A DNA stretch of 64,000 bases from Branchiostoma floridae (Eukaryota; Chordata; Leptocardii; Amphioxiformes; Branchiostomatidae). Location of the stretch: the NCBI RefSeq assembly GCF_000003815.2, contig NC_049979.1:10641381-10705380 (forward strand), read 5' to 3'. The position numbers were made by a program, and so were the translations under genes. The notes under the pieces were generated by a model that was given only the letters and a program-made list of their open reading frames with translations, was not told where the DNA came from and did no database searches. Every line of letters starts with the position of its first letter. Within the stretch, counting starts at the first letter, position 1. This document shows positions 436-39,012 of this stretch, in pieces.

Positions 436-647
436 CATGGAGCATCTTAACAGCCACAGTCACGTTGAAGCTCTTGGCCTTCTCTGTTGCGATCGGGGAG
501 GAGGCCTTCCTGTGTGTTGGTACACTGCCCATCAGGACTCCTCGCACAACCTTGCCAAAGGCACCTCGTCCAAGTGTCTCGTAAAGCGTGAGGCGCGAGA
601 AGGGGATTTCCCAGCGATCACACGGGTCTGGTTTTACAACATCCAAG
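436..647 (-). other. Exon with N-lobe start of the tyrosine kinase domain
   Basis: The exon encodes WEIPFSRLTLYETLGRGAFG, then KVV, and ends at VAVKMLH. The glycine-rich loop and the lysine are intact. Between strand beta-2 and VAVK there is a longer linker (about residues 531-553, Ser/Thr/Lys-rich) than I expect in FGFR-type kinases. No catalytic-loop HRDLAARN or DFG exon is present in the window, so the kinase cannot be judged active from here. Confidence 0.85.
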
Positions 648-3600
648 CTGTAAATGCAAATGAAACATAAGAACAATAGTAGTACAACAAAAATGTGAAC
701 ATCAACAGTGTACTGTAAAACTCAACTTCACTTACAAGTAATGTAAACTGGACACTTACAATAGTTACAAAGTTGGTAAAAGTTGTTGCTCGTAGTACCT
801 CAGTATGTATGTTATGTACATGTACAAGTAAAGGAGAATTTTGAGGAGGGAAAAAGGGCTGTAATTCAAATTAGTAGATTGTCTATTGAATATCGTACAC
901 ATATAGTTGATTCATCTGAAGCACTTTTTCAGCTATTTCCAAGTACAGGAAAGCTTCAGGGGTCGGTAAGGTTATCGCTGGGATGCAAGTCTTGTCAGGT
1001 GCCTAAGGGAACAATGGTGGAAAATTTCAGGCATGCCAAAGACACATTTCGAAATGCGCTGGGATTTTAAACTGGTGATAATGGTAACAGATACCATGGC
1101 ACGGGCAGGTGCATGGAAACCACAAGCATGAGGTGGTTGCCATGTCAGGAGAACTGCCATCTGTCCTCACCCATAACGTGCCACTTTAGATATTGATGAC
1201 AATTATATGCTTAAGATTTTTTTATTTGGATGTTTCTTTTTATCAAAAAAAGGATTGAGGTAGTAATGAAAGTCAACTGTTCAATGATTATAAATATGTG
1301 GTAGAGAAAATGTTACATGTAACATGTGACATGTCACAGGAATGTTGCATAATTGTCACGTGAAGTTGGTGAGTGGAGTATGAAAGGGCATTGACCGATA
1401 GGGCCTACATTTTCTTAAACACCAATGAGAAAATATGCGCTTCTAATGAACTCTTACAGGAAATGTACCTATTTGATATATCTATTTTGTGCAAAGCTCA
1501 TTAAATCTAAATTGTGAAAAGAAATTCTTACGTCAAAATTCTAAACAAAAAACACACAACTTCATCAAGAAAATCTACACACACAATACCCTTAACTACC
1601 TGTAAGAGGCATTCTTCTGCAGCTAGCTTGCAGATACATTTGTAGCTTCTAACAGTAGCACTCCAAACGTAGGACAGTAATCCTGCTATGTAATGTTCAG
1701 TTGACAACATCAACATTCTAATTTATTCAGTTGGACACCTGTTGAACATATAGTTTGAGGAGAGCTACACCTCAAGCCTGTTAAAATATGCAACACACTG
1801 TGAGAAAGACATACATGTACATATTTTGTAACCCACCTATCAGCAGGCTGATGATGACCTGCGATGTAGATGTTCTTCTTCCAAGTCCCCCCGTCATCAT
1901 CGACAGTTTTAGTCAGGCTGGAGAACTTGTAGTGGCGATAGTAGCAGTAGGATACAGCCAGCAGGAGGAGCGTGACGGCTACAGAGGCTGGGATGTAGAT
2001 ATGCAGGGGCAGGGGCCTGGTGTCTGCACTGGGAGGGATGGTTTCACCAACTGGGAGACCTGTTGAAGATGACAGCCAGATCATAACTACAACCTGGAGT
2101 TATGAAAAACTTACCAACCAACCAACAATAGAGAAGTTGGGATTTACCCAAATACTTGGCTGGCTCCATCATCCTAGTTCATGTAATGGACCTAACTTCT
2201 TTACTGTTGATTAGGTAAAGTTTACCTTTTTTCATAATGTCATTTACCCACACAGATGAACTTTCATGCAAGTAAAAACGGATAAACTTGATGATGAGAA
2301 AACGATAAAGCAAAACAATCAAAGTTAATCTGCACATCAAGGAAAGTATCATCTTACCATAGGGCAGAGTGCTCTCCAGTATGGCTGTCCTCATCTTGGA
2401 AACAGTTACTTTTGTAGTACCATAAACTTGAAGATCCCCTAACATGGAATAGACCAGGAATTTGGATCATCCAGCACACAATAATATCTTAAGATACAAG
2501 GGATAGCATCACTTTTATCATAGATTATCATTAGCATATCTTACAATATAAGATAAACAATGTTATAACAAGGAGTAATTAAGTCACACCTTAGTAATCA
2601 GTTTTATCAATAGGATATCAACACCCTTTGTTCAAAATGAATATCAAATGCACTCGCTGGATTGCGGAGGCTGTATGGATCAGAAAATCTAATGCTGTAA
2701 CAGTCATAAACTGACGAGGGGGGATACAAGTTCAGTCAAGTTTGGGACTGCAGTCTACCCAATGCAGTGCTGTAAGGGAAGTAGAACCAGTCACCTTGCC
2801 GTGAGGGAGGTAGCAGAGGGACTACCGAAACTTGGCAGGTAAACTGTAGCACAAAGAACCTTAAAACAGCTACCTGATGACACTATTCAGTGTCATCAAT
2901 AGCAATGTTTTCCAAGCCATTGCTTGGCTAAAAGCAAGTTGAAGCTAACTGCTTACCTGTCTCAAAACAGGTGACATGAGCTATGTTGATGTTCAGGTCA
3001 TTCTCTGTATGATAAGGTGTCATGGCAAGCACCTGTTTGATATAAAAAAAGCTGTAATGCAGCAGTCTGCAAAATATCCAAGACCTTTGTCCAAACAAAT
3101 ATATTTATGACACTGCAATACTCATGACATATGAAATTACAATGTCTTTAGAAACTAAGGTACATAAAGGTAAAGCTGGTCATACTCAATGGCACATGAT
3201 TCAAAGCTATCAGTGCAATGCAGCTTTGCTATATGACACAGGTTTATCATAGCCAACCACATTGGGCAATCCTTTCTCTTCTGGATAAGTGTGTTGGGTT
3301 CTCTAACCACTGAGGCTCTCACAAACACAGGGCCGTGTCCTTACATCATCCCCTGAAATGATGAGAAACTTACCTGCACTCCATAGCGGCTATTTGGTCT
3401 GAGGTCACTCAGCAGGTAGTGTTGTAGGTTCTGAGAAATAGCAAGGATGAATTTTTTTTTCATTGGTTTAGAAATACCACGGTATGGGAAATATTCATTG
3501 TAAATTCAGTTTGCTGTACTAAAAATTTTGTGGTATGGTGAAATCAAGAGTTTGTCATCTCTTTGTGTTTGCAGATGAACCAACAGTAAATCAATTTACC

Positions 3601-6600
3601 TTAAGACAGACTATGCAGTGTGATGGCTTTGTAGTTGGATTGTAATGGCATTGTAGATGTAAATGTACAGTAGTGTTTAGTTGTGACTGTGGAAATAAAA
3701 GAAATGATCAAGCAAATGGCTTTCTCACCCCTGGTACTACAGTAGAGTTTGCAGTAGTTTCCTGGATCCAGCTGAGAATACTGACAGTAACACACTGTCC
3801 CCATCTAACCAGAAAGCTGGTGATTTGGCCTGTCCTGTTGTCAGGCCTGTCCCAGGTGAGGTTAGCAGAGATCCCATGGGGGGTGGAGGTGACTGAGGCT
3901 TGGATGTTCTGCACTGGGCCTGGTGCTGAAGCTGGGGAGGTTGTAAAGACAAACATTCCTTTCACTTCAGACAGTCTTAATTTTCTGGTAGGGGAATAAT
4001 GAGGTGTTTGCTGTATCTAATGCTGGCAGTGGGCATGCAGAGTGCATGTTTTCACTGTGTGATGATTTCATTGTGGAGAGTTTGCTGCTAAAACTTCAAA
4101 CAGAAATCACTAAATTTACAAATTGAAAGGCTCAGACTTATCAAGCTGATGTTGCATGTAGGTCCTCTCCCTGTGCATGTTCCATCGTCTGCTGAGTCAT
4201 TCAATACTTTTTACCCCGTCTCCCAAATAAGATGCAGATCTTGTATGTCATGAAGAAGTGGAAGAAGTTAATCTTTTGTACAGATTGTATACTAGCATAA
4301 ACACATTGTATGACCCTACTACAACTACAAGTACCACTACAATAAACACACTTCCTAATGGTAAAGTACACTTAATCACTCACCTTCAGGTATACAGGTG
4401 TAATTCTTGATCTGGGAACAATCTGCAGATTTGTAAGTACAGGAAATACACGTCATTTTTCTGTTTTTCTTTCAGTTTTTTTTCTGGTCCAGAGTGCAAA
4501 ATAGTAAGCTACAGCTTTTAAAAGGAACATTTGTCAGTTAGCAGGACACCTGCTAACATCAGCTGATGTATGAGAGACGTAATCTCACCGGTGAGGTCTA
4601 ACACAATAGAGGTTCCCTTGGCTGGTCCACACGTTGTATAAGGTTGGAGCTGTATGGAAGATAATGATGATGATGACACATTAAGGACAATTCTTCTACT
4701 GTCAATGTCATCAAAACTACAGTGCATCTGGAGTACTTTCATTTGATATGCAAAAACAGATACAAGAAAAATGAAACTGTCTGGTGAATAAAGTGAATGG
4801 CGCAAATTAAGGGTGTTGTTAAGTTTGATCAGACCTTGAAGTAGATGATACACCCAATTCCACCCTTTGGTACATCCAGTAGAACATGTCTTTCTTATTC
4901 TGAAGAAAAAGAATGAGTTAAAGACTTCCATATCAATATGATCATACAAGCCTTGGCAATACCAAAACCATGAGATTCTGAATTATGATATTGTAAAAAC
5001 AAGACAATCATAGGATTATCAACCAGTAAATTACAAAATGCAGAACTCGAATTGCCTTTGAATGTGCAGTAATACTTACAACTTACTGAATGAGTTATCA
5101 TTTCAAACAAACAGGATCAGAGATGTGTGGTATATTTTACTACCTTATAACCAGAGGCAAAGTGTGTTGAACTTTATGACCTCAGAAGACGCCATGAAAA
5201 ACTTGTTGTGTGTGTTAAAAGATGTATGCACAGGATCTCTCTTGTACATGTTTTCCTTACAAAACTGTACCTAGACAGACAGAAATCATATGAAGCACTC
5301 ACTCTAAGATGGCGTTCATAATTAAAAGGAAAGATCTTGTCTTGACAGTAAGGGGATCTGTCTGCAGAGATGCTGTAGTGTGTGAGCTGCCCTGCCTCTC
5401 CCCACCCTGCAGAACATGGTCAGGACCAGGTGTAAAAAATCTCATCTAAATTTGTCCGCTGGTACAACCACTATTTGGCATAATGGCACAGTCACATTTG
5501 GCATGTGATTTCGAGGCAGTTTTTATTCAAGTAGGCTATGACAGAAATAACAAAGACAGGAACAGACACGTGCGACATATCTTGTCATGGTAATGACAGG
5601 GCTCCCTTGGAAATCAGTCTGCTGACTGAAGGGACCACCCTATAAGATCAATAAATAAATAAATAAATGGTAGTGATGTCACTTGACCCTTGCCCTACCC
5701 ATAGTGCCTTATATATAGGATCCATAAAAATGCGCAATCAGATATTGTGGTGGAAGATCGTAACTTTGTCTATGCCGGGCTTCTCTGACAGTTAGTTCAT
5801 CTGTATTGGCAAATGACATTATGGAGGAAACTAACCAACACAGCAAACACACCAAAATAGCTGGAACATATTCAAATTTTAGTCTGAAGAAACATCAGAT
5901 CCCTAAAGCTGTTACGCAGTGGTAGATGGGTCCATTCTGTGAAAATGAAAATTTGGTTAAGTCAAAACTATTTTACCAGTGTTGGTTAGTTAAAGTTTTT
6001 TTCTCCATAAGTCAGAAAACTTAACGATCTTCCTCCAAAAGCATACACCTGGAGACTCTTTTCTGCCAGTGCTCACAGAAAACGTGGAGTGACTGGAACT
6101 CACAGGCAGGATGTTCCCACGTGATGTCAGCCTGGAAGCGGGAGCCATCAAACATCACCGTTCCAACAGTCAGGTTGCTGACAGTGCCGTCTGAGTGTGT
6201 GTGTGAGAGAGAGAACAAAGGTGGTTATACACATATCTATACACCTCCACACCGGGAATATTTGGGTCACTAATGGACAACACGGTTGTTTGGAAATAGA
6301 CTAAGGAAAGCATTATCACAAGCCATTGCATGGTCCAGGGAGCCCAATGTATGGGGTATGAGTGTATGTAGTATGAAACACAACCCATTCATAATCAATC
6401 GGTGATGAAATGTTGGTATTTTCCAACATGCAGGTGCACTTTCAGACAGTTACAGTGAGGTTGTACATGTCCACAAAGGGAAAGGAAACATCAGACACCA
6501 AATATCTAATTACATTGTAACTGCTTGGCCTTATAAAAACTCAAAACTTCACTCTGGAGTTGACAACTACCACCTGTTAATATATGTATACCAAACAATA

Positions 6601-9600
6601 TGTACTCTTTTATTTCATTCAAGCAGGTCCCTCTTTTCAACCTCCTTGTTTCATTCACCTATCAAATGGACAAACTCAAATGACATTTTGAAACTCTGGT
6701 CAAGAAACATCATTGGTACATTTTAGTAGTATCAACTGACATTGATTTTTGACTATGACTTCCTTCCTACTCTGGGCTTTTGGAGTTAATAGAAAAGCAT
6801 GGAAAACTTCCATAAACTCGAGGGCCAAAAATAATTGGCCGACAACAGCTCACGCAATGAATAAAGCCTTTTTGCTCAGATGTGAGCCACTAGTGGCTCA
6901 TTACCAAATGCATGTGGCTTTGTAAAAGTATCATCCAAGGGATGAAGGCACATCACAGGGTTGAGGGATATTCAGATATAGTGGCAGTGTTGTTGTTTCC
7001 TGATGAAAGTCTGATTAGATGTACCAGAGGACACACATCTTACCAGTCTCTATATCCCAAGAGTTCTGGAGGACTGCAAAGCAGGTACCTTGAAAAGGAG
7101 ACCCTCATACTAGTACAGTAGCCATATGCAAATACTTTGTGATCCTAAGGGTCAAGGGTGACCATAATGCAAAATAAAATAATTACCAATATACACTGGT
7201 GGAGAGAGCCTCTGGAGACCACGCCAGCCGACTGCTGCGACCTGAATGCGGTACCTGTTGCATGCTGGGAGCCCCGCAGCTGTGAGAAATAATGTCGTAG
7301 TCTGGAAAATAATTGGTTTGTTGGTTGTAGTGATTGGTGTGATCATTGATTGTTCACAAGAAAGTCAAGACCATCTAACTCCACATCCATAATCTAATTA
7401 TAACATTTCAAACAAAGTACAAAACCATCATCTATTTATTACATTCCTGGATGTCTAATCTTCACAAACGTATCAAAGTACAAAAGGGTTGCTGTAAGTT
7501 GCGAGAACTGTAAAAGCATTTATTCTTGTGGAGGTTTAACAATTCCCAAGTTATAGTAGTCATAGAAGGGAGACATATTCGCTGTGTCTACAATTTGTAG
7601 TGGAAAGGTCACAAGAAAAAAAATCTGACAGTTTCAAGATTAACAGTGCCCTCCCACCTACATGTAGAAGAGTTATGTCAGAAATAAAGAGAGGTGCAGT
7701 AGTTTATGTAGCTCATTTAATGCAATAGGTATCCAGCATTTGTCTTTTAAATCTAACCCATTTACAATCATGGCACAGATTTTCCTTCTTTGAAGGCCAA
7801 GGACTTGTCTTTGAAGGCCAAGGACTTGTCGAAATCTGGCAATGTGCATCTGCAAAAAATGCATCTTCACTAACAGTGACGACTTTTAGACCTGATAAGA
7901 GCAATCAATAGAGTAAAAAGAAGGTAGGAAGAATTTGGACCTGTACCTATGGTACAATCTCCTATGTTACATACAACTATTGTAGTTTTTGGACAAAGGA
8001 CTTCAATGTCAAATGGCAAAATGACAGGTCTACAAGTTTTGTCATCCAGGTCTCTTAAGAATAAGACCAATAACCCACATCAACATTCATCCTCTGGGCT
8101 ACATGCATCTACAACTTTGAAAAATTGTGTGCTGGCAAGATTTCTATCACAGCCCACACAGGTATGCACAGTTTAGATATACTCGAGTGCATATACCATA
8201 CTGGGGAACATTGCCATGCATATACTGGGTCTAACGTTAATAATTCCCTGCAAACTATGACTTTCCACTCAGTATCTGAATTCATGTTTATATTCCAATT
8301 CAGCATCAGTCTTTTAAATATGAGGATCAACAGATCATATTGAAAGACTAAGCTGAAGAAAGTTTACTAAGATGAACTTTATGGAAACCAACAGATCAAC
8401 ATTGGTGTGGCCTTAGTGCACCCATCCTTTGGTTAGGAAGTCTGACAAGTTTTCACTTTCCACAACCACATGTTCCTCATGTCACAGAAAACCAAATGTA
8501 GTCTGCAGGGGTGAAAGGACAGGTTTACAGTTTTCTTTTCCCAACACATCCAATTAAATAGGGTCAGAAGGAGCCCAGCAGAGTGAACTGAAGTGAATAA
8601 CTCATGAATCACAGTGTAGCATAGCATTTCTCTGGCAACAGTAGCTGGTGATCAGTACCAGGTTTTCATGCTAGTGCAGTTGTTCACATCCTTCAGTCTA
8701 AAGAAATGCAACTGCCACCTATCAAATGGGCCGAATTATTGTAGAATGGCTGTTGTAAATTTGACGTACTTCTGTAACATTCCAAGAACAGCTTTGCCTG
8801 ATTACTTAAAATCCCTCGGTGAAGCTACGGTACATTGGCATCTTCGCTGTGTCCTAGATTGGATTTGTGTTACCCTTGACTTAACAATGGGAATATGCGT
8901 GTATCGAACAAAACAAACATTCAAGTATAACTAGAAAGACAACAAAACACACAAAGCATTTTTGTTGATGAAATTTGTTGAGCGCTCTGTCAAATCGCTC
9001 AGACACAGCCATGACACCAACATACAGCAGCTTCAGTGACATACTTAAGAAAGGGCTTGGAGAAATTTGAAGGCCAAAAGATTTAGGATTCTAAGTGATT
9101 TTATCAATACACCTCTATCACCATCAAGAGGATTACTTTCAATCAAGTAGGCATCAATCTCTATATAGATATAATGTATATCATATACTATTCGCCTCTT
9201 GTGTTTCACATGGCTGCTTTAAGCTCACAAGAATATCAAGCAAGACCAGATCATTCTGGGAAAACAGAGAACAACTGGAATGTCTCAGGCTTCCCTATGA
9301 AAAACTGTTATTATATTACATACGAGTAGAAGAAATATGTCATGCCAATCCAAGTGTGTCACATAAGATTTGTCTGCACTGTTGCCTTGGAAAGCTCACA
9401 GTCCAACTTGACTTACTGGAGGAAGCTGCCTTTCAGCAAAACCTGTCATTCAGAATGTTGAGTGACTTGAGTCAATGGGAAAAAATGTGGGTAAGAACTA
9501 GTCTCAGTGAAATTTAGCAAAAAAGGGAGAAAAATATCATGCTAATGAATTGTTCCAATGTTCCGTTATGCTCCTTGGAAGATTTTCACAAAAATGCCCC

Positions 9601-12600
9601 TGCAGTTCCAGAGCAGAGAAATGGTAAAAAAGCCTAAAATAAAGCAAGGTGGAGGGAGCTACACTTCTAGTAATGTTTCAAAACATGCACATTGTTGTTG
9701 TCTTGTAGTTGTCTAAACATGAAACAAAGAAATTGTCTAAACATGATTTACATAAGATTGGTATTTGCATACAATCCTTTTGAGTTAGTGACTTTGACTT
9801 GTACAACTGGTTTTCCCTGATTTCTTCTACCAGTTCTCAGTGATTTTTATAATTTGCAGTAGGCAATTCACAAGTTTATAGAGACAATGACAGTGTAAAT
9901 GCAGGTTATTTCATGCAAAATAACCTGGGGAAAACATCATAAATTTGAATTTATCCAGTTAAAGGTCTGTTCAAAATTGGTGGAGAAGGGGTGCGTACTT
10001 TATTTGAGTTTTTCCATTTTACCTTTCAGTCCCAAAGATCTGTCTAAGACTTGTCCAAAATCAGGAGTGCGTACTTTAATTGGGGTGCGTACTTTATTCG
10101 AGAATATACGGTAGTCTCAGTGAAATTTAGCAAAAAAGGGAGAAAAATATCATGGAAATGAATTGTTCCAATGTTCCGTTATGCTCCTTGGAAGATTTTC
10201 ACAAAAATGCCCCTGCAGTTCCAGAGCAAGCTGCTACTGGGCCCAAACAAACATACATTACTTCTTCCTTACATCACAAGCTATCTGCCACCAAACAGGC
10301 CATAGCATGTTTATGTCAGGTTCTTGATTTATGCTGACCACAAATATGCAGAAACACAAACAAACAGACAGACACAAAGATATACCAAAAGCTATACCTC
10401 CATCTTTCATGGAGGTAATAATGATTTGCCAAGGGACTTTGGCCAACATTGGGTAGCATTTGCCTGTGGTTCGAAGGGAAAATGTTACCTCACTGCTGGC
10501 TCACTATCCTGGTAACAAATTACCTATCGTTGCCAAATTTTACTATTAACTATCCATAACCCCTTAGGAATGCCTGGTGGAGGCAAGGAGACAACTTCAG
10601 CGGCAGATTGCTTGTGGCACCGAGGTGGTTTGAATGAAGAGTTGCCATTACTTCTAGCACAACAGAGCCCTGGGTGGTAGGGAAGGGTCACACACCCCTG
10701 TTGCAGGGGCCACCTCTGCAGGTGCGTAGCTCAATAACCCAAAAATTCCCCTTGGGCATAGCTCGCCACTAATTTGACAGTACACAACCCACTGATTGCA
10801 AACAATTTTCAGGACTGTCACACTGGCAGTTGTTACAAGGAAACCTCAGCAGGGATTTGCTGCCAGCACAACTCACTTCTGGAAGCTGACCAAGAATATG
10901 CTTGGTTTTAATTTATAGGAAAGAGTCGAACGTGCAATCAGGGCCTATTTCATTTCAGTTCACATACCAGGGTAGCGTATAGCTTAATCATTGTACCTTT
11001 CATTAACAGTCATAAATTAGTAGCCAGGTGGGAGCATGCTTTCAAAAGGAAGCTGTTTAACAAACCGCTAAATTGCTGTAAATCTTCCTCCTTGGAGACA
11101 GCCTATTTGTGAGAGGAAGATGTGACGCACTATGCATGTCATAAAAACATGTGACTCAAACTTGAAACATTTTAACACAAAAGATTGGATGTTTGTGAGA
11201 TTTTCTTTGACAAAGGAATGACAAATACGTCGATGATCACAGTGAATACCACATGGTGGTAGTCTCATTACGTTATCCATGATGTATGTTAATTGACTTG
11301 TTGCTAAATGAGTTTACACCTTTTGTGTGTTTCCTGGTAAATGTAGTCTTAGCCTACCACAAACTGTATCTTATTCTGATAACCACATCACTGTAAAAAG
11401 TAATGTGTCTAAAAAAATCTGTCAGATTTCCCATGATTTGGAAAAAGCTCCAGTTGCCTGTGAATGACATTCTCCACATTGCCAGTGGAATCCTCTCCTT
11501 TGCTTTATAAAGAGGTGGGTATCTTTCCCAGACAACTGAAGGAAATGAAGCGGAATGATGGAACTTAAACACATGTTGTTGGAGAGATTCAAAATGTGTG
11601 TCCTGTGCCCAAACATCAGCGATCCATTTCCTTACTGTACAGACTCTCCCAGTCCCGATGTGCTCATAATCTCTAAGCAGATGTGAGGATTTATCTCATT
11701 CTCAGCATTTATGTCTGCTTTTGAAACTTCCTGGGAGGAGAAGAACCTTTAAAGATATAATTTAAGAGCACTAGGTGTACAATACATGATAGAACCTCCT
11801 TAGTACTTGTAATGTACATGTACTAAAAAGTAGGTGTTGTACACTTTCAACACACTTGCATATCCTTACGTCTGCTTTGAGATAGGTGCTCCTAATGTAA
11901 TGTACTTGAACTATACATGTATGTATGGAACCTCCTTGGTACTTGTGGAGATAAGTGCTCACAATGTAATGTACTCCTTCTAACATCCAGGCAAGTTGCT
12001 TTTCAATGCTCAAGGACATCTTCAGATGAGACTTAATTTCACTTAGATGTGCTCTGTCTGTCTCACCGGTAAATCATGACGGAAAAGAGCAACAACTCAG
12101 GCAGCTCACTGCTAAGAACATCACAAAGGACCACTAGATCCACCCTACTGAAGTAAGGCTGGAAATTGGTTTTCCTCTTCTCTCCATCCAACCACAACAG
12201 GATAATTGCTCCTCAGACATCCCCTCCTCACAAATAGACCTATTACTTGTAATTACCGGGTCATCTGAAAAGCAGGCATTTCCATGCCGTCCAGTTTGTC
12301 TGGTAAGGCACGGCCTTTCCTTCTTGTTTCACCTGGGATGAACGAGGACAATAAGTTGTGATGAGTTTACTTCAGCCGCAAAGCTCGTGCAATATTTCCG
12401 CCTTGTTGGCTTTTGTTCTTTATAGCTCTTTTGACAACAGAATGTTGAAGACGGTTCAAATAGAGCTTACTTTCTTCATGCATCACTTCTCATGTCACAT
12501 CCCTCATGTTGTGGGTCAGAGGGCAAAAACTCAATATCACAAGATTGGTTTGTGTCAAGGAGATTCTTTTGGGTTAGCCAAATCTTGGATTGAGACTCCA

Positions 12601-15600
12601 AGCAGACGCACATTGTATGGCTCTGGCTCATTCTGCATTTCTTTTTACCACATCCTTTTACTTTTAGCCTTATATGAATACAGATATGCAACATGCCACA
12701 AAAGACATGCAAAAAGTTAGTTGGAACCAAACATTCCTAGATAAGGAAAACTTCAGCTACATATTTATCTCAGAGCATGTTATTTTTAATGACCCTTTGC
12801 TGCTTTTCCACCCATTCTAGCAAATACAGAAAACCATACTGTGAATTGCTTTATGATCTTCTGTGGTGCCCGATGGTCAAGCAGTTAGACTAAGGAATAG
12901 AGGGAACAAGGTATTCAGGAATTGGGAGGGAAAATGAGGCATTCACGGTTAAGTTAGTATTTTGAATGCAAGACAGATCACATATTCACAGCGATGCGAT
13001 GAATTCGTAATGAGAGCTCACCGCAAAAACCACAACATTAAACAGGTGCAAATATTGTACAGTAATAAGACACAAAGAGATGAAGAGATGTTAGATTGGC
13101 TATTCAGCTGTGACACCCTTACGTGACCTCTCTAATAAGCACTTCTTATTTCTGACATATTGGTCAATACAGCGCACTCTAATTACCATCCCATGCCATC
13201 AAAAGGTGGAAACAAGTGAAAGGAACCCCCGCTGTTCTTCTCTGCACACCTGTGTCTCACCTGGCGGGAACAAGTCCCTATTGTCTCAACAATCATACAT
13301 ATTGCTAATTAGATTGGACAGATGTAAAGCTGCCTGTGATAAATACAGTCTAACATCACATTACATTCAGTAGATGGTCAAAGGTGGGATATTGTGATAT
13401 CTTTCACCAAGAAGGTTACAGTTTGGTAGTGTTTGTGGTTTTCACTATGGGAGAGGGTAACCTCCAATGACAATTTGATGATTAGTGCAGCATTTATACT
13501 TGAAAGGATGTGAATGCTTTTACAAAGACTTTTTTCTCTTACTGAGATTCACATTTGTGGAAGGATTGACAGATTAACAGGACTGCTGACTGTCGACTTT
13601 TCCACTCAAACTGGGAAGGACCCATGCTCTTTTCGATAAGTGTGGTGGGTTCTTTAACATGCTCGAGGTGTGGCTCTCCATAAACACGAGACCTTCATTT
13701 AACATCATATCTAAGGGATGGCCCAAAATGAAGCTAGGCACTCATTTCATAACAGCAGTTATGAGGTTTTTGATGTTTGAGTTGAAGTGCAGCCATTTTG
13801 GATGGATAGGTTGGAAGTGTGCAAGGGAGTGAATCACAAATTGAGAAGCACAAATCAGAATCAATCCCATGCCTGGGTCAATTCAGATTTGCAAATCCTG
13901 GCATGAAAAGGCTCTCGGAGACCTTATCTGGTTGTTTGACTTATGTTGTACAACTGATGCAATCACATTATACAACATAAATCAAAAACTGGATATGGTC
14001 TATGTCCAACCCAATAAGTGTAAACACCCTACACTGCTACACATGTTACATGTAGTCCATCCTTGCAGCTCAGAGACCTAACAAAGTTAAGGGCTTCTTC
14101 TACATTGCTTAATACATAACTATAGCTCTATATCAAGGCCGTCTCCAACTTGAAATGTCTTTTCTGTCCCACTCATTGTTTGGGAGCCCATGTTGTTGAT
14201 TTTCCTGGTTAAATATGTCATTTCAAGCTTATGACAGTACATTTTCAACAGTTATTTTGTTATTTTGGGGATGGATAGCAAATTTCCGTCCCAGGATGGC
14301 AAGTCGGGTCCTGGAGACAGCACTGCTTTATATAAAACTTCATAACAGACTTTTATTGAGGGTAAAGGGAGATGAGCTTACCTGATTGATCTGGTACCAC
14401 TCTCCATCACCCTCCTGTACAAAGACCACATACACAGTGGATGAACGGACAGATGGGTCCATCCCAGCATCTTCAGCAGACCAGGACACAAGAACAGAGT
14501 CTGATGTACTGCGATGGGCTGTCACCACAAAACTGGGGTCTTCTGGAACTGGAATGTAGAGACAAATCCAAGCTCATGCCACACCTTGTCCAATGATTTG
14601 TTGGTTCTTAGAACTAAGACACAAATCCAGATAGTAGAACTGGAAAATTGATGTGAAAACACTGTCTGAGGGCAAAGTCTGCAACTTAGTACAAACAGGT
14701 AGTCTATGGGGAGTGAATGCAGTCATTTTTAAGTATTCTTCTAAGCCCACTGTTTTCATATACCTTCTTCTTGCTAGAATTCAACATAAAATGTCTAAGG
14801 GAAAAATAGTTACGGCCTTGTCTGAAAGTGTCATTTGTAACAATATACATTATAGGGGTCATTATCATTTGTTTGAAGAACCACTGAAGAAGCAATGTCT
14901 TCAGCTTCCAAAGCAAGTGCTGTGTTGACCTTCTAGTAATTGGTCCTAAGCACTAACAGCACCACCTGTCAGTAGTCTACAGAACTACACAGAACCATAT
15001 GTCCAACTGCGTCAACTTTTTACTACGGTATAGTCTATTCTCGCAGCTCAAGGACCGCCCCAAGAATTGCATTACTGTGGCTTACTATGGTTAACAATGT
15101 AAGTCATGTATAACGTACATGTACATCTGCATCTGCTGAAACCGTCTCACATGTGTCATACAGTTCTGTCCCTGTGAGACTTAGTGCTCCAGTAGACAAG
15201 GGGGTGGAGAAGGAATTGAACACCCCTTCTTCACCATAAAAAGTCATGTGCAGGTCAGGCAAACAGGTAAATGCCTGTCTGCCTGCTCATCTGTCGAATC
15301 GACAGGAGAACCATAACATGTAGAATGAAGAAATAAGACTTACCAGTACCATTTCCAACTGGAAAGCACTGCAGATCCCCTGAACAGTTTGACACAACCT
15401 AAAGAAAAGAAGCGAAATGTGGTCACAGGCAAACAAATCAGCTGAATATCTGAGGTATCATCAAGATGGTCGGAGGTGGAGTTACCTGGGAAGACTGCTA
15501 GCTGCCATTTTGTCATTTTGTGTAAATAGTCATTCAAGGCCTGTAAACTCATCATAGTCCTGTAGCCTCCGTTAAAGAAACTCCTGCTGAAAACTACTGA

Positions 15601-18600
15601 GTAAGCAAGACTGGCAAAACAAGTCTGCGTGTTGGTTCAATAAAGTTTCTAAACGGGAAACATGCGGCTACAGCATCATTACTAAAGATGTGGCACAAGT
15701 GTGTAGGGCTGACTTAAGGTTGTTTACTCCCATTTAATACCCTTCTGATTTCCGATAAGGTACCATTTTTATTAAGTTTTTCTTTACCAAGGTATATGAT
15801 AAGAAAAAAATGTAATAAGAAAACAGCAGGAGTCTGTAATGGAAGCTCTTGTCCTAAAACTGCAGACCACATTAAAGAGTTACTCTTCCTATAAGTTACA
15901 TAGTATTACACAAATACAGCAGATGGTCTTTGAAAGCAAATTGGTAGATTGTGATGATGAAAGTGACACACTTTTTTGTCCTGCATACAGACAGGACAGA
16001 ACCAGCCTGATTTGTACTTCATCCTTCCCACACCTTTCAGTGTATAGGGGTAGTGCACATCTCCATTTCTACAATACTTTGGCCACAACACACTACACCC
16101 TAGGCCATTTCACCTGTCATTGTATTATTGTATATGCCCACTCTTTATAAACATGATGTCATCAGTCCGTCACACCATCACAACAAGGCAGAGTTTACAA
16201 GGCACTGTAAACTTGCCTTAATTGCTGTGTAACCACAGCCTATGTCTGGGGCAGCTTGAAATGATGGGTGCTCTCCCACAGGACATTCTGCTTACACCAA
16301 CACACTTCCCCCTTCCTGACCACTTCTTAGTCAGAATTGGTCAACGTATACAGAGACATCAATTCCAGTGATGGAGATAGGGGACTGCTTATATACATGC
16401 TAAAAGTCTCTGGTATTTTGTTTTGTACCACTTCCATACACAGGAAGTTCCAAGATCTATATCATACATCTCATTCTGGAATTGAAACTTTCTGACCAAC
16501 TATTTATCAATCAATGTCTTTTTTATACAATGGAATTTGGTTTGTTTATTTGACAAACATTTTATAGTATAATCTAATGACGAATATGTTGCTGTAAGCA
16601 GTCTGGAAAAAAAGTGACTGTAAACATTTTATACATAGTTTATTTACCAGTAGGCAGTAGCTTATCTAAGTTCAGATGGAGTTTTTTTCAGCAATGCTCT
16701 TCATGTCAAAGAGTCATCTAACGTTACAGAGACAACTCTAAGGGCCTCACACTTGTAACATGTTTGTAAGCAACTGACCACCCAGACATTGCCAGACTTC
16801 CACCGTCATGTTATGACCAGTAGACTTGTGGCTAGAAGCAAGGAAGTCGGATGGTGTTTTCACATGGATATTATTGTTTTCCACATATGCGATAACGGTC
16901 AGTCTCTGGAAATTAATTTCCTGGCCATTTCCAAAGTTTTTTGTGGACCACACAACGGTAACACACAGTAGACAATGGGCAAACAGATCTGATGACAGTG
17001 GTCTGAGCGAGTCGCCAGTCACATCCTGCTGACCTAGACATTGCAAAATAATCTCCAAGCAGATGTTGGGAGGTAAAATCAGTAATTTTGTTTTCCTACC
17101 TGCCCGTTTCTGTCACAAGCTGCTGGTAGGGGAGCAATTTGTAACAAAAACAGGAAAGCTAGGAAAACGTAATGATTTTGCCCCTACCATCTGCTTGGAA
17201 ATTGTTGAGAGGGCACAGTCCGCACAAAAACTTCTACCTGGTGAACTTTGCCAACATTGCTGAACTATGCCGGACACAATCCTGGTTATTTTCAGCTTTG
17301 CTTTGTTAGTAGGTCCCCCAACAGTCTGGGACTTATGATACATTTGTATATAGTGGCATGATGATTAGGGTTGTTGAATCTAAAGGTTCAAATCCAAGCA
17401 GGTTCCAATGTTGTACCCTTGAGAATAGGACGCAAACTAGCGGCAAAGCCTCAGCTCTTTGTTTGAGGAGACACTTTTATCACTAACAGTAGGCATCCTT
17501 CCCCATTAGACTGGACCAAACTTCTCAGTCTAGTTACATTCAGCTTTAACATATATGTACATGTACAAAACCAGTGCACTACTCTATAAGGTAACAAGAT
17601 ATCTAAGGTCTCAAACAGTTCTTCTCGGCCAACCAACGCCTCTGGTGTGTTTTCTGTCCATTTGGCCAATTTCTACTATTTTTCCAGCGGCCTGGGGAGA
17701 CTGGTAGAGGCTAAACCAGATACACAAACAAAAATCATCTCATCTATATACATTCATCCAGATTTTGTGAGAAGAAATATCAAACTAGATATGAATCCAG
17801 CAAAGGATGTCATTAAGGGTAACACTTACAAACTGACATCTTAAAAGGGTTAACATTTACGGAGAGTAAATGTACTTGATACTTAATATTAGGCATGAAA
17901 GCTGTAGACAAACTTACACAGTCATCTGTAGCCAATGTGACGTCATCACAGTCAGCAGGGCAGTTCACGGGCTGAAAGGGAATGAGGAAAAAATTCACAA
18001 AAATAGTAGTATAAAAAAAATGTTTTTATGTAAACAAACTAATATTATTGAAACTCTATCACACAATGTGCAGAACTTAGAAAAATGCACGAGTATCATT
18101 AGCAAACATGATGTAATGACGTAAGATTGCTGCTTTAATGTGTGATTTTACGTCATTAAAATAATATCAGATGTTTCAAATAAAGGCACACTATCTTAAT
18201 ATCAGGTAACATTAACTCTTGTTGTGATGCATCACTAAACAGTTCTTTGCATCCTAAGTATTTTATGTATCTAATGTTATTAGGCTGTGAAATGGAAGAA
18301 AAATTTCTCTCCCTGTCTCATATTTCAGGAACTAATTCCTCAACGATCTAGAATTTACTACAACATACACTGCATTAGACTTTACAAAGAGATATCTTAA
18401 TCCTGAGGATTACATGCAGGAATGCAAGTATGGTTCCCACACCTGGCTCTCTTTTAAATCAAACCCCCTTTTGGCTACAAATATCAAGTTCTTTGTGTCT
18501 GTGTCACTAAACTCAGAATGAACAGATCTGGGCTTTTGAGTTTGGTTCATGCTGTCCTGAGCATTCAAGTGACTCTCCTGTCTATTCCTGTTCTTTTGGG

Positions 18601-20897
18601 GACAATGCACCTTCCAATGTCCTAATGTACATTTTATTTGAGTGACAATTTTCTTTCCATTTTCTGAGTTAAATTTGATCGTTTTGAACGAGGTACATGA
18701 AGGGGAATCAAGGGGGTACGTGCCATGTCCTACATGTAGTACCAAATCTGACAGCAGGTGCTCTGCTGATCTGGGGGTCTTGCACCCTTAGTCGTTTCTT
18801 TTCAGGTGAAGACAGGTCAGACAGTACTAGTGATGCTGACGTTGCAACTTATGTGGCTGACACTGCGGCCCAGCCAAGGAACAACAATGGTGAATGATGC
18901 CTGAAATCACTGAGACAACAGGCATCCCTGGAGAAATGACAGGCCAGCTTGACTCTGAACAGGTAGTGTTGCAGCAACAGGTGCCTAAATGCTAGTGGAT
19001 GAGAGGACACAGCAAGCAAAGGATCCTCAACCTAACTCTGCTGAGGTGTCCAACAGTGACTGTGAGGATGACAACAGACCAGGACCATGCCACTCTACCA
19101 AACCCCCTCTCCCCTGACAGTTACAGTTCTATGTTAATGTAGGGTAGACTGAATGATGATGGGCTTACTGATGGAAATGTGAACAGCAAATGATATAAAT
19201 GAGGTGAAAATTTCCCCTTGCTTACTTCCTTGCATACTTGTCAACTGTGCAGTCCTGTACTGTACTTCTGTCAATATCACATACCTCTTTTCAAGGATTG
19301 GCCATTGGGGTCAAGGGAACAAACGACCTTGAGACAAAGGTGCAGACGGGCACTTAGGAAAAACATTCTGTGCCCGATAGAATTTCGGATTTATCGGTAT
19401 GAGGTTTTACACCAAACATTTCTAATGAATCATTGCAAGAAAATTAAGTTTGCCTCTCTTTACTGCAGGAAACTGCTGATAACAGTTTATGACAGTGAAA
19501 TAATAACTGGTTCTGTCCTCTAGTGATTCTTAACATGACAAAAGCCTTGGTTCCGAGAGTAAATGGAATTCTCAAGTAAGGATGACCAACACAAAGGTTT
19601 CTTGCAACAGCTTGTGCTGAGGCACATTGCAGGCAACTTTCCACATGTTTCTGAACAAACATCAAGGAAGTTTTAAAGAGAAAGACAAATAAGAAAGAGT
19701 TGTAATGGACACAATGCCCTCCTTGTCTACAATGCTTTTAATCATTTCATAAAAGAAGTATAAAAGAGGTCCCTTTGCCCATTCTTGCCGAACAAATGTT
19801 CATTATTTCTGTTAATCCTGCTAAAAAGGAATCTGATAACATTGTCCTTACTCAAGTACGAATGTAGTGTACTTGAAAAAACACCAGCTATCACGACTTC
19901 ACTTGTTCACTGAGGATTCCAACACCAAAAGCCAGCCAACAGGGAGCCACTACATTTGTTCAGTACCTCTCATAGAAGTCCAGGGACATAAAGGCCCCAT
20001 GACACTGATGAATGGTAGGTATGTTCTCAGAAATGTTGGTTGTGCATTTTCAACATTATATCAAGCTCCCAATGGTTGCTTGGTGCTAAAAGACTCTTCA
20101 TCCTCAAGGACAGAGGGCAGGGTTTTTTTTTCATCAAAGAAAAGTCTTAAATTCTCTGTCACTATGAGAAGGGAAGTTACATCATGGGCGGGAAATAATG
20201 TTCACCATGGTTGTCATGAATGTGAAGAAAGGGCAGCAAGGTTTGCGGTCTACACCCTAAGAATGGCTTTAGCACTGGTTCCCCTTTACGGCCTCCATTG
20301 TCAAACAACAGGGCTCACATAGGCAGCAACTCTTTTGGTTTTGCTGGTCAAAACACATAAAACTCATATAAAGAACATTTTGTTTGGTCAGAATCATAAA
20401 ATTGGGTCTTTTTTCTAAAACAACCTTCTTGGACTAACGGGTCAACTTAATGGGTTGGGTGTTGAATTTAATTTTTCACAAATCACTTTTTTATGAATAA
20501 AAAGTCTGTTTTTCTACATGTACATGTACATACATCATTATACAAAGCAGCCAATCAAATACTATCATCAGTTTGCACTTATATCTTGTTCATAGTTACC
20601 CTCATTTTTAATTGAATCACAAGGTGAAAGTAGACATATGTACATAAATCTTTGATGAATCAATTACAGTACAAAGTAAAAAGCTTCCAGGTACAGGTGA
20701 GGTTCTCAATAGGTGGGAAGCACTTGTACTGGGAAAAGGCTCACCTGTGGCAGTTCTGTCTCACAAAGAGTTCTGCACTGTGCCTTGCAGACTGCCCTTC
20801 CCAGCACCGACAGGGGCACACAGTCCACCATCGTCCATCCCAGCATCCCGGCAACCGCAACAAGCAAGCAAAACTTCTCACTACTGAGCACCACCAT
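436..20897 (-). CDS. FN3-domain receptor tyrosine kinase, 5' part (14 exons, kinase cut by window edge)
   Basis: Exons in transcript order: 20745-20897, 17918-17971, 15344-15398, 14382-14548, 7187-7301, 6026-6190, 5303-5406, 4589-4649, 4384-4422, 3729-3931, 3374-3430, 2957-3032, 1837-2059, 436-647. Every junction has an AG acceptor, a GT donor and a matching phase, giving 561 residues without a stop. Residues 1-26 look like a signal peptide. Residues 35-80 are cysteine-rich. FN3 unit one spans about 88-181, a cysteine-rich FN3-like region follows to about 304, and a further FN3 unit spans about 305-416. A hydrophobic helix lies at about 437-457. The kinase starts near W503 with the glycine loop GRGAFG (517-522) and the ATP-binding lysine K558 in VAVK, as in the FGFR/VEGFR-type receptors. 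The rest of the kinase would lie left of position 1. Parts of the ectodomain look anosmin-like (inference). The extracellular ligand cannot be read from the sequence. Confidence 0.85.
1837..2059 (-). other. Transmembrane and juxtamembrane exon of the receptor kinase
   Basis: This exon joins the last FN3 unit to the kinase. It encodes a threonine/proline-rich stalk, a hydrophobic run (IYIPASVAVTLLLLAVSYCYY, here split: about residues 437-457), then a basic stop-transfer stretch with RHYKF and an acidic DDDGG segment. It starts in phase 1 and ends in phase 2, which fits the neighbours at 2957-3032 and 436-647 exactly. A single-pass type I topology follows. Confidence 0.85.
3280..3360. repeat. 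Fragment of dispersed repeat (SINE body-like)
   Basis: The stretch with 'ataagtgtgttgggttctct' and 'cacagggccgtgtcc' matches the repeat near 13620-13740 in order and wording, although diverged. It lies in an intron of the receptor kinase gene. It looks like a truncated old copy of the SINE family seen at 25866-26125. Confidence 0.5.
5648..5669. repeat. (AAAT)n microsatellite beside repeat remnant
   Basis: Five or so AAAT units follow the phrase 'actgaagggaccaccctat', which looks like the 3' end of a dispersed retroelement ending in a simple repeat. The element family was not identified. Confidence 0.4.
7789..7830. repeat. 21-bp tandem duplication
   Basis: The 21-bp unit at 7789-7809 (starting TTTGAAGGCCAAGG) is repeated exactly at 7810-7830 within an intron. 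It looks like replication slippage and has no visible function. Confidence 0.8.
9499..9615. repeat. 117-bp direct repeat, left copy
   Basis: This copy pairs with 10112-10228. By eye the two copies differ only at two adjacent bases (CT versus GA). They flank 496 bp of unrelated sequence inside intron 4 of the receptor kinase gene. Confidence 0.85.
10112..10228. repeat. 117-bp direct repeat, right copy
   Basis: This is the right copy of the 9499-9615 repeat. Just upstream are three 'tgcgtacttta' phrases and 'gaatatacggta', a wording that resembles termini of non-autonomous DNA transposons in marine invertebrates. That family link is from memory and weak. Confidence 0.8.
13615..13740 (-). repeat. 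SINE body-like repeat, reverse orientation
   Basis: The sequence 'tttcgataagtgtggtgggt' followed by 'tctttaacatgctcgaggtg' is the reverse complement, with mismatches, of 26055-26115 in the SINE within the oxidase gene. The tRNA-like head is not recognisable here. Confidence 0.55.
17350..17465 (+). repeat. tRNA-like SINE fragment in receptor kinase intron 2
   Basis: A candidate A box lies near 17351 (TAGTGGCATGATG) and a perfect B box, GGTTCAAATCC, at 17385-17395. The text after it ('ccaatgttgtacccttgaga') parallels the tail of the SINE at 25866. It is too diverged and too badly folded to be called a tRNA gene. Confidence 0.6.
20745..20897 (-). other. First coding exon of the receptor kinase: signal peptide and cysteine motif
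   Basis: The start at 20897 gives M-V-V-L-S-S-E-K followed by a hydrophobic core (CLLVAVAGMLGW). After the likely cleavage site comes AVCKAQCRTLC. The exon ends in phase 0 at a GTGAGC donor, matching exon 17918-17971. An upstream in-frame ATG at 20975 exists, but it places the hydrophobic core far from the N terminus, so 20897 is preferred. Confidence 0.75.
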
Positions 20898-32463: not shown

Positions 32464-33529
32464 TCACTCTGCCATCTCATCGTCGCCCTCTGCACTACCG
32501 GTGCCCTCGGTACCATTCTCTACTGCCGGAACATCGGCAGACTGGACAGGTACAACCTTCTCGGCAGGTGCCGCCTCGATGGCCATCCTCGGTGCCTGGA
32601 TACTCAGCACTCCGTCCTTGGATAGCACGGACGTCACGGTGGCGGGGTCCACCCCCTCGGGCAGCACAAACTCCCTCCTCAGCTCCTGATAGCGGAAGCT
32701 GTGGCCGGTCTGGTCGGCGTGGCGCGCTTCGTGCTTGCCCTGGACTCGGACTTTGTTGCCGACCGTTTTGACGCTGATCTCGTCAGGAGAGAACCCTGTC
32801 ACGTCGAGCGACACCTCGTACTTCTCGGGCGGAGTGGCTTCGTTCTTCTTTTCCTTCTTTCCTTCGTCGGCCGTCTTCTCAGCGTCCTTGTTCTGCTGTG
32901 TCGGTGGCCGACATGGGCATTGTGAAGGGCTGAGGAGCTGGTTGAGGAAGAGCAGTCCATCTTGGAGGGCGGCGTCCATCTGGTGTTCCATGACGGAGAG
33001 TGGGACGTCTGCGAGTAGGAGAAAAATGCATCGTCAGTATTAGAAAGCATAACGTTACATAGCATTTTGATACATTACAACAGTTTAAGGAGAATAAACT
33101 TTGAATACAAAAACGATGTAACGTAAGATAATACAAAATGTTATATTACTCGCAAGTAATAATAGTAAGGGCATTTAATGCCTTCGCTACAGTCACAGTC
33201 TTCTCAAACCGTTTCGTATGCACAGTTTTATATCAGGCTAGGGATACAGGGATGTGTCTGACACAGAGAAATCAATTCGGCAAGTCATAACTCTGTCGCG
33301 CTACGGGCTTACACTGTATTAATTAGCGTGAACGCACAGCACTTGTATTAAACTGCTTAAAACGTCGACTTTTTAGGCTGCAAAAAACGTACTACTACTA
33401 GCTACAAAACGGATATTTTGTAGAAAGAACGTCATAGGACTTACCATGAGCCAGTCCCGGGAAGCCGCGAGGCCGCACGACTCGGCAGCAGTGCCTGCTC
33501 GGGTGGAACGGGGAGAACACGAGAGCCAT
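32464..33529 (-). CDS. Small heat-shock protein sHSP-1 (alpha-crystallin domain, 2 exons)
   Basis: Exons 33445-33529 and 32464-33008 give 209 residues. ATP-independent chaperones of this family bind unfolding proteins in oligomers. The N-terminal exon begins MALVFSPFHPSRH; the intron falls in phase 1 after GLAH. The alpha-crystallin domain covers about 91-168 (YEVSLDVTGF, GKHEARH, RREFVLP, LSKDGVLSIQAP), and V-P-V at 181-183 fits the family's C-terminal I/V-x-I/V motif. The tail is acidic (EGDDEMAE). The internal ATG of MEHQMD would also give an open frame, but the spliced start is conserved in all four copies. It is head-to-head with sHSP-2 over 632 bp and likely heat-inducible. Confidence 0.93.
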
Positions 33530-37902: not shown

Positions 37903-39012
37903 TCACTCTGCCATCTCATGATCGCCCTCTGCACTACCAGTGTCCTTGGTACCATTGTCTACTGCTGGCACCTCGGCAGACTGGACAGGTACAACCTTCT
38001 CGGCAGGCGCCGCCTCGATGGCCATCCTCGGTGCCTGGATACTCAGCACTCCGTCCTTGGACAGCACGGACGTCACGGTGGCGGGGTCCACCCCATCGGG
38101 CAGCACGAACTCCCTCCATAGTTCCTGATAGCGGAAGCTGTGGCCGGTCTCGTCGGCGTGGCGCGCTTCGTGCTTGCCCTGGACTCGGACTTTGTTGCCG
38201 ACCGTTTTGACGCTGATCTCGTCAGGGGCGAAGCCTGTCACGTCGAGCGACACCTCGTACTTCTCGGGCGAGGTGGTTTCGTTCTTCTTTTCCTTCTCTC
38301 CTTCGTCGGCTGTCTTCTCAGCGTCCTTGTCCTGTTGTGTCGGTGGGTGACATGGGCACTGTGAAGGGCTGAGGAGCTGATTGAGGAAGAGCAGTCCATC
38401 TTGGAGAGCGGCGTCCATCTGGTGTTCCATGACGGAGAGTGGAACGTCTGTGAGGAGGAGAAAAATGAATGGTCAGTAAACGTGTCTCGGGATGCAAATC
38501 ATATACGGTTTGCTATTTTTGTGGCATGTAAAAATTACTGCAGGAAATTATATAATACATATAGAAAGTATACATTATATTTCAATACATTGCAACAGCA
38601 TAAGGAGACTAAAACTATGCAACGTGAGATAATACAAAATGTTATATTACTTAACGTTAACTATTACTCACAAGAAAACACATTTAATGCCTTTGCTACA
38701 TACACAGTCTTCTCAGACCGTTTCGTACGCACAGTCTTAAATCTGGCTAGGGATACAGGAATGTGTCTGGCACGGACAAATCAATACGGCAAAACATGAC
38801 TCTCTGACGTTATGATATGGGCTAACATTGTATTAGTTAGCTTCAACGTACAGCACTTGTATTAAACGACTGAAAAGGTCGACGTTTTAAGCTCCAAAAA
38901 CGTACCGTTACGTGGACAGAAGGTCACGAAACTTACCATGAGCCAGTCCTGGAAAGCCGCGAGGCCGCACGACTCGGTAGCTGTGTTTGCTCGGGAAGAA
39001 CACGAGAGCCAT
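37903..39012 (-). CDS. Small heat-shock protein sHSP-3, the most diverged copy
   Basis: Exons 38937-39012 and 37903-38447 give 206 residues. Exon 1 is three codons shorter than in the other copies and changed (MALVFFPSKHSYR). In the alpha-crystallin domain ELRREF reads ELWREF, next to the arginine that corresponds to R120 of alpha-B crystallin, which is kept. Other changes are HADETGH, LPDGVD and EGDHEMAE. The frame is intact. Its TATA position (39111-39117) reads AATAAAA on the minus strand instead of TATAAAA, so its expression may be weaker. A minus-strand AATAAA lies at 37381-37386. Confidence 0.92.

Follow-up and report, generated by a model that had tools for sequence, protein, structure and literature searches.

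A predicted Torso-type receptor kinase with an anosmin-1-related ectodomain in the amphioxus Branchiostoma floridae

A stretch of 64,000 nucleotides from the genome of Branchiostoma floridae (NCBI RefSeq assembly GCF_000003815.2, contig NC_049979.1, positions 10,641,381 to 10,705,380 of the forward strand; hereafter the window, numbered from its first letter) carries on its minus strand the 5' part of a gene predicted to encode a receptor tyrosine kinase. The predicted protein combines a cysteine-bearing segment and three FN3 units, which resemble those of anosmin-1, with a membrane helix and a tyrosine kinase. Judged from its sequence, it is best read as a Torso-type receptor and not as a fresh fusion of anosmin with an FGFR kinase. 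The genome searched comprises 513,431,437 bases in 431 contigs, and the window lies on C1 (C denotes contig).

Gene structure and domains of the predicted receptor

Fifteen coding exons lie in the window, and exons 16 to 20 come from its left flank (Table 1). Each of the 14 junctions inside the window has GT-AG borders and keeps the phase; the joined exons read through 562 codons free of stops, and an in-frame stop stands 32 codons upstream of the ATG. Left of position 1 the five further exons continue on the minus strand, ordered and in phase, to the stop codon. The whole predicted gene has 20 exons, with GT-AG borders and in phase throughout, and encodes a protein of 909 amino acids (aa); as a set of predicted exon joins, the receptor gene is real and complete. 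An earlier sequence-only reading of this DNA had described 14 joined, in-phase exons coding for a type I membrane protein with signal peptide, cysteine segment and FN3 units, and had pointed to the sequence left of position 1 for the kinase half. The kept phase and the type I architecture, including the membrane helix, were borne out, and the kinase half was recovered where that reading had pointed, on the same strand; the exon count was not, as 15 exons were found. Exons 2, 6, 9, 11 and 13 can each be skipped with the phase kept, which would explain the lower figure. Of the profile searches which that reading had proposed, those with FN3 and kinase models gave matches and that with WAP gave none.

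Table 1. Exons of the predicted receptor gene in window coordinates (negative positions lie in the left flank).
Exon	Position	Strand	Residues (aa)	Content
1	20745..20897	-	1-51	start codon, signal peptide, first cysteines of the Cys segment
2	17918..17971	-	52-69	second half of the Cys segment, PVNCPADC
3	15344..15398	-	70-88	CVVSNCSGDLQC; like first half of anosmin WAP core (weak, no Pfam WAP)
4	14382..14548	-		first half of FN3-1; fn3 E=1.7e-5
5	7187..7301	-		second half of FN3-1; phase-0 junction EWYQINQ/TTTLFL same as in anosmin
6	6104..6190	-		first strands of FN3-2; phase-1 end 5 residues past Trp
7	5303..5406	-		middle of FN3-2, HYSISADRSPYC
8	4589..4649	-		end of FN3-2
9	4384..4422	-		two-cysteine linker DCSQIKNYTCIPE
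10	3729..3931	-		first part of FN3-3; phase-1 start CIPE[A] at the position of anosmin CPTP[A]
11	3374..3430	-		FN3-3, HYLLSDLRPNSRYGVQ; phase-0 start same in anosmin and C4 gene
12	2957..3032	-		end of FN3-3
13	2358..2438	-		juxtamembrane stalk
14	1837..2059	-	helix at about 436-456	stalk, hydrophobic transmembrane helix, juxtamembrane part
15	436..647	-		kinase start; Gly-rich loop LGRGAFGKVV, catalytic Lys in VAVK
16	-413..-597	-		kinase, left flank
17	-16250..-16339	-		kinase, left flank
18	-16815..-17029	-		kinase, left flank
19	-18665..-18802	-		kinase, left flank
20	-20348 to stop ending -20762	-		last exon, left flank

From its N-terminus the protein consists of a signal peptide, the Cys segment, the three FN3 units, the membrane helix and a full tyrosine kinase. 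The Pfam family fn3 matched two stretches (E=1.7e-13) and is the sole family above its cut-off in the ectodomain; the middle unit (FN3-2) had no Pfam match and was assigned by alignment. Neither Cys_box nor WAP of Pfam matched the ectodomain, in a scan in which human anosmin scored 143 and 41 bits. Searched across the genome, Cys_box gave no match, and since the control genomes gave none either this is no proof of absence; PF23008 gave just two matches, both under the cut-off, the better with E=0.011. No relative was found on viral contigs. The kinase covers PF07714 fully (positions 1-258 of 258, E=2e-93), its start in exon 15 has FGFR4 as best PDB match (E=3.1e-5), and because the catalytic motifs VAVK, HRDLAARN and DFG are all present it looks active. 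Three FN3 units on a type I receptor kinase are the architecture of the Torso family. In the place of the cadherin-like or Ig-like ectodomains of RET, FGFR and VEGFR there is fn3, and the membrane helix and kinase set the protein apart from anosmin, which is secreted and has no kinase.

Relation of the ectodomain to anosmin-1

Five ectodomain queries were searched against 177,635 distinct sequences from the Protein Data Bank (PDB), and anosmin-1 (1zlg) ranked first in three of them. It led with FN3-2/FN3-3 (E=6.6e-6; runner-up 0.0098), with FN3-3 alone (1.4e-5; runner-up 0.0074) and with the three FN3 units together (4.6e-5; runner-up 0.00095). A BLAST shuffle control (2000 shuffles and one reversed sequence) reached at best 28.1 bits among the 500 matches listed, versus 40.8 bits for the real sequence. 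A smaller set of 14 targets contained ten controls, namely nine long open frames from five genome stretches, not all of them with FN3, and fibronectin FN3 7-10, with phmmer E-values scaled to a PDB-sized search. Here the receptor ectodomain matched amphioxus anosmin at 2e-6, human anosmin at 0.0039 and a gene on C4, described below, at 0.0062; both anosmins were ahead of all ten controls, the best of which stood at 0.83. The reverse search set a two-sequence anosmin profile against the receptor and the same ten controls, and the only measure that separated the receptor was the best domain of the FN3-3/4 profile (16.5 vs at most 8.9 bits).

Taken unit by unit, the best partners in human anosmin are collinear in four cases out of four: the Cys segment pairs with the Cys box/WAP, FN3-1 with FN3-1, FN3-2 with FN3-3, and FN3-3 with FN3-4. 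Two of these matches are weak (Cys segment, z 2.3; FN3-2, z 2.4), while FN3-3 scores 80 to human anosmin FN3-4 and 59 to fibronectin FN3-10. Automatic alignments that misplaced the Cys box or an entire FN3 unit were excluded. On these comparisons the Cys segment, FN3-1, FN3-2, linker and FN3-3 of the predicted receptor are homologous to the Cys box/WAP, FN3-1, one of FN3-2 and FN3-3, linker and FN3-4 of anosmin-1.

Apart from the receptor gene, the genome carries an anosmin-1 orthologue at C12:8302672-8318286 on the minus strand (loci L027-L029), modelled with 12 exons. The encoded protein shares 33.6% identity with human anosmin over residues 58-627 (pairwise E=3.6e-99, pairwise BLAST E-values being those of one-sequence searches), and the most upstream exon carries, tentatively, a C-x3-C-x11-C-x3-C segment. 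Elsewhere in the genome, matches to the WAP part of anosmin cluster at C3:21.18-21.21 Mb and C17:18.22-18.24 Mb, and are probably WAP-domain gene families.

Intron positions were compared, on the anosmin side solely with this C12 gene, using intron-blind alignments from which anosmin FN3-2 had been removed beforehand and random placements that keep the number and phase of introns. Among the 12 receptor introns compared, three fall at the identical base in anosmin and one more lies a codon off. The exact matches, with a slash for the intron where it falls between codons, are EWYQINQ/TTT with DWELVEQ/TTS (phase 0), CIPE[A] with CPTP[A] (phase 1), and the phase-0 introns directly before NLQHYLLSDLRP and DQFTHLIQGLTP. 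Three exact matches occurred in 0 of 20,000 random placements and four near ones in 3 of 20,000; the other eight receptor introns are at least 39 bases from any anosmin intron. In a five-sequence alignment, whose intron count omits the intron after exon 3, the receptor shares three of nine introns exactly with anosmin (1 of 20,000 random placements). The C4 gene shares three of seven with anosmin (0 of 20,000), and receptor and C4 gene have two of nine in common (40 of 20,000). Other likenesses were left uncounted or are less exact. The phase-1 intron at the end of exon 6, 5 residues past the conserved Trp of the middle FN3 unit (ITWEHPA[W], KVYWDLPE[G]), agrees with anosmin FN3-3 and the C4 gene by eye only, at an alignment gap; the phase-0 intron before exon 2 lies in the Cys-box loop, as in C12 anosmin, yet is 75 bases off in the intron-blind alignment. 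Over the FN3 region, the receptor gene thus agrees in structure with the anosmin gene at these shared introns. For human ANOS1, 13 exon ends were considered, of which c.255, 541, 856 and 1062 are confirmed by published splice-variant names and nine are unconfirmed, and the intron tests used none of them; two of the ends, c.1488 and c.1651, disagree with the amphioxus gene.

The contig-4 paralogue, the kinase and rival explanations

The C4 gene (C4:22513992-22525004, plus strand; loci L037-L039) was modelled with three FN3 units and kinase pieces. Its FN3 exons, a hydrophobic segment and its kinase exons follow one another on one strand within 12 kb, the hydrophobic segment sitting between the FN3 and kinase exons without being spliced into the model. 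An assembly gap of 100 bases interrupts the first kinase exon, and the search upstream of the gene gave no convincing exon for a Cys box. Within the 14-target set its ectodomain matched Drosophila Torso at 7.4e-10, human anosmin at 1.2e-9 and amphioxus anosmin at 8.9e-6, with the best control at 3e-4, and the Drosophila Torso query returned the C4 gene at 2.5e-9 and no other target below 20. The middle unit of the C4 gene scores 75 to human anosmin FN3-2 and 44 to FN3-3. A single Torso sequence, that of Drosophila, was used. By these comparisons the C4 gene forms a bridge between Torso and anosmin and is a predicted paralogue of the window gene.

The kinase of the receptor is 62.8% identical to that of the C4 gene and at most 50.2% to the 11 other kinases aligned with it, with RET at 50.2% and FGFR1 at 44.7%; for the Drosophila Torso kinase, too, the nearest in that alignment is the C4 gene (50.2%). 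Searched against the genome, the receptor kinase finds the C4 exon at 63% identity and the next other locus at 47%, among the matches listed. The Drosophila Torso kinase has its highest identity to the exon at C4:22.523 Mb (54%) and its second highest to the HRD exon of the receptor itself (52%), in a list of 139 matches with E up to 1e-10. Scores in both searches cover the best candidates; by summed score many single-frame kinases come out higher, since their entire domain lies in one open frame. In phmmer searches RET stood at 8e-81 and FGFR3 at 6e-78, and an EGFR chain, matched in two stretches, ranked above both. Among human kinases the nearest are RET and the PDGFR/VEGFR group. Tyrosine kinases also form clusters in this genome (C12:0.60-0.98 Mb, C8:24.05-24.14 Mb, C7:24.41-24.54 Mb and C10:15.16-15.17 Mb), many of them single open frames of about 900-1000 codons.

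We consider it likely that the window gene encodes a single-pass Torso-type receptor kinase with an anosmin-1-homologous ectodomain, a paralogue of the Torso- and anosmin-like C4 gene, and that Torso-like action is its most likely role. The name Torso-type, and not Torso, is used because there is no direct ectodomain match and the link runs via the C4 gene. A direct Torso reading from Drosophila alone was tried and dropped, the ectodomain searches having given nothing useful.

A number of results weigh against a Torso-type receptor with an anosmin-1-homologous ectodomain. Against Drosophila Torso, the receptor ectodomain was unlisted in the 14-target phmmer search and reached 21.9 bits in BLAST, and the 562-aa model gave a phmmer E-value of 59, mainly through its kinase part. 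No match to Pfam FN3_Tor_3rd was listed for the receptor ectodomain, in a family on which Drosophila Torso itself scores only 15.3 against a cut-off of 30. The match between the C4 gene and Torso is confined to FN3-2 and the linker (PHCLDVSGYNFSVC vs PSCLDWYPYNYTLC), and FN3-1 and FN3-3 of the C4 gene gave no match to the corresponding Torso units (z 2.9 and 0.1). Drosophila Torso did not find anosmin in the PDB search or by 14-target phmmer, and the best unit pair of Drosophila Torso and human anosmin has z 2.4. An approximately unbiased test on a kinase tree rejected neither the pairing with Torso (0.17) nor that with RET (0.18), in a tree that excludes the wrong-frame sequences Bf_L004 and Bf_L007 and to which L001 and L003 yielded no row; in a second tree the receptor, the C4 gene and Torso branch successively, with supports of 20-60.

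Further contrary results concern the anosmin relation, and the first of them would favour a generic FN3 ectodomain whose likeness to anosmin is ordinary FN3 similarity and a coincidence of cysteines. The PDB query with the whole ectodomain did not list anosmin (an E-value of 0.0066 would result for the 562-aa model once filters are off), nor did that with the N-terminal half, where titin came first at 3.9e-4. On summed score two genome open frames beat the receptor with the full anosmin profile, and one frame and fibronectin beat it with the FN3-3/4 profile; on the best domain of the anosmin profile one open frame equals it (14.9 vs 14.6 bits), and fibronectin FN3-10 reaches 59 to receptor FN3-3, beside 80 for anosmin FN3-4. 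When compared with the units of amphioxus anosmin, receptor FN3-3 slightly favours unit 3 (75) over unit 4 (72). The sharing of introns may partly be an old feature of the repeated FN3 unit, because several units carry introns at the same place relative to FN3. We nonetheless regard a generic origin as very unlikely. The 150 best fn3 matches in the genome all span at least 69 of 84 positions in one open stretch, which indicates that split FN3 units are not the bulk, in a ranking that favours intact units, and the linker and intron coincidences also speak for a specific relation. The sequence-only reading had proposed the resemblance to anosmin and had asked that anosmin score above generic FN3 proteins. 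Three of five PDB queries, the collinear units, the lead of both anosmins over ten controls and the common introns agree with it, and the anosmin link is supported, at this level of comparison, beyond generic FN3.

Extremely unlikely, in our view, is a chimeric gene model, in which an anosmin-like gene for a secreted protein adjoins a kinase gene but is not spliced to it. For lancelets, PMC4967905 argues that what looks like domain novelty is explained by errors of gene prediction. In addition, no homologous sequence bridges junctions 12/13 to 14/15, and two AATAAA/ATTAAA words occur in intron 14, a further point against our reading. Introns 7-13, however, are each shorter than 700 bases and free of such words, introns 12 and 13 measuring just 518 and 298 bases, and the kinase exons would be left without an ectodomain of their own. 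That the C4 gene repeats the same plan makes a chimera unlikely. A lineage-specific fusion, in which exon shuffling within the amphioxus line joined an anosmin-type ectodomain block to a kinase of the FGFR/RET class without any tie to Torso, also seems unlikely, if less so. Such an event would fit an ectodomain that matches anosmin and not Drosophila Torso, a kinase nearest among human ones to RET and PDGFR/VEGFR, and a genome with expanded single-frame kinase arrays. It sits poorly with a C4 gene that repeats the FN3 plan and has both the closest kinase and an ectodomain matching Drosophila Torso, and with the report, in PMC6660194, of Torso genes across deuterostomes, lophotrochozoans, cnidarians and ecdysozoans. 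The fusion of an anosmin ectodomain to an FGFR/VEGFR-type kinase, as originally suggested for this DNA, is less well supported, the closest kinase being that of a Torso-type paralogue ahead of RET and FGFR1.

Evolution, neighbouring genes and known systems

The ectodomains of Torso and anosmin look homologous, as far as sequence comparison goes. With moderate confidence we propose that Torso receptors and anosmin-1 come from one ectodomain, anosmin being its secreted sister, perhaps a kinase-less derivative, with an extra FN3 unit gained by duplication of the middle one. The extra unit could be such a duplicate because the middle unit of the C4 gene resembles both FN3-2 and FN3-3 of human anosmin. 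Either direction of descent may apply, anosmin arising from a receptor or a receptor taking up an anosmin-like ectodomain. The architecture is probably old, given that the C4 paralogue repeats the FN3 plan and that reports of Torso genes extend from cnidarians to deuterostomes (PMC6660194).

We infer that the window gene is expressed, and that an extracellular ligand, plausibly a cystine-knot protein of the Trunk/PTTH type, would dimerise or rearrange the receptor; the kinases would then trans-phosphorylate, with an output that, going by the Torso family, would run through Ras-MAPK. What makes such a ligand plausible is the reported presence of trunk in B. floridae (PMC6660194). Were the common origin true, vertebrate anosmin could retain receptor-like binding of cystine-knot ligands beside its FGFR1 role. 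A shared ectodomain would also give the extracellular part of Torso a known relative, and would hint at the origin of anosmin and at testable anosmin ligands. Deuterostome Torso genes are already known (PMC6660194), and the surprising part is the relation between Torso and anosmin. No literature linking the two was found in a search that left subscription journals mostly outside, and PMC6660194 makes no mention of anosmin.

Other genes share the window with the receptor. A gene resembling FMN-dependent hydroxyacid oxidases has its 3' exons next to the 5' end of the receptor gene, at about 23.0-25.4 kb on the minus strand; one of two pieces matched PF01070 (E=6.9e-8). An array of closely similar, intronless small heat-shock genes in mixed orientation occupies 32467-33033 (minus), 37906-38472 (minus) and 40165-40725 (plus), with HSP20 at E=6e-23 for the two genes scanned, and antisense frames point to a further one at about 34.7-35.3 kb (plus). 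Ependymin-family words occur in several stretches between about 42.5 and 62.5 kb, among which the stretch at 43.1-43.4 kb (PF00811, E=2.7e-15) is the one scanned above its cut-off.

Three known systems invite comparison with the predicted receptor. RET and FGFR/VEGFR/PDGFR belong to the same kinase class and have cadherin-like or Ig-like ectodomains, from which the FN3 ectodomain of the receptor differs. Anosmin-1 (ANOS1/KAL1) is the secreted Kallmann syndrome protein. Its cysteine-bearing N-terminal part and FN3 units are collinear with those of the receptor, both proteins have a linker with two cysteines ahead of the last FN3 unit, and the genes share intron positions and phases; anosmin differs in having a Cys box, a WAP domain and four FN3 units, whereas the receptor has three FN3 units, a helix and a kinase, and no Pfam Cys_box or WAP. 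Torso is the receptor of PTTH and Trunk in insects. Compared with it, the amphioxus receptor has more cysteines, a short kinase insert and no FN3_Tor_3rd or direct Drosophila ectodomain match. In other respects the two are alike: both are type I receptor kinases with paired cysteines at the N-terminus, three FN3 units, the third of which follows a linker with two cysteines, and a single helix, and the closest kinase found for the amphioxus receptor belongs to the Torso-like C4 gene.

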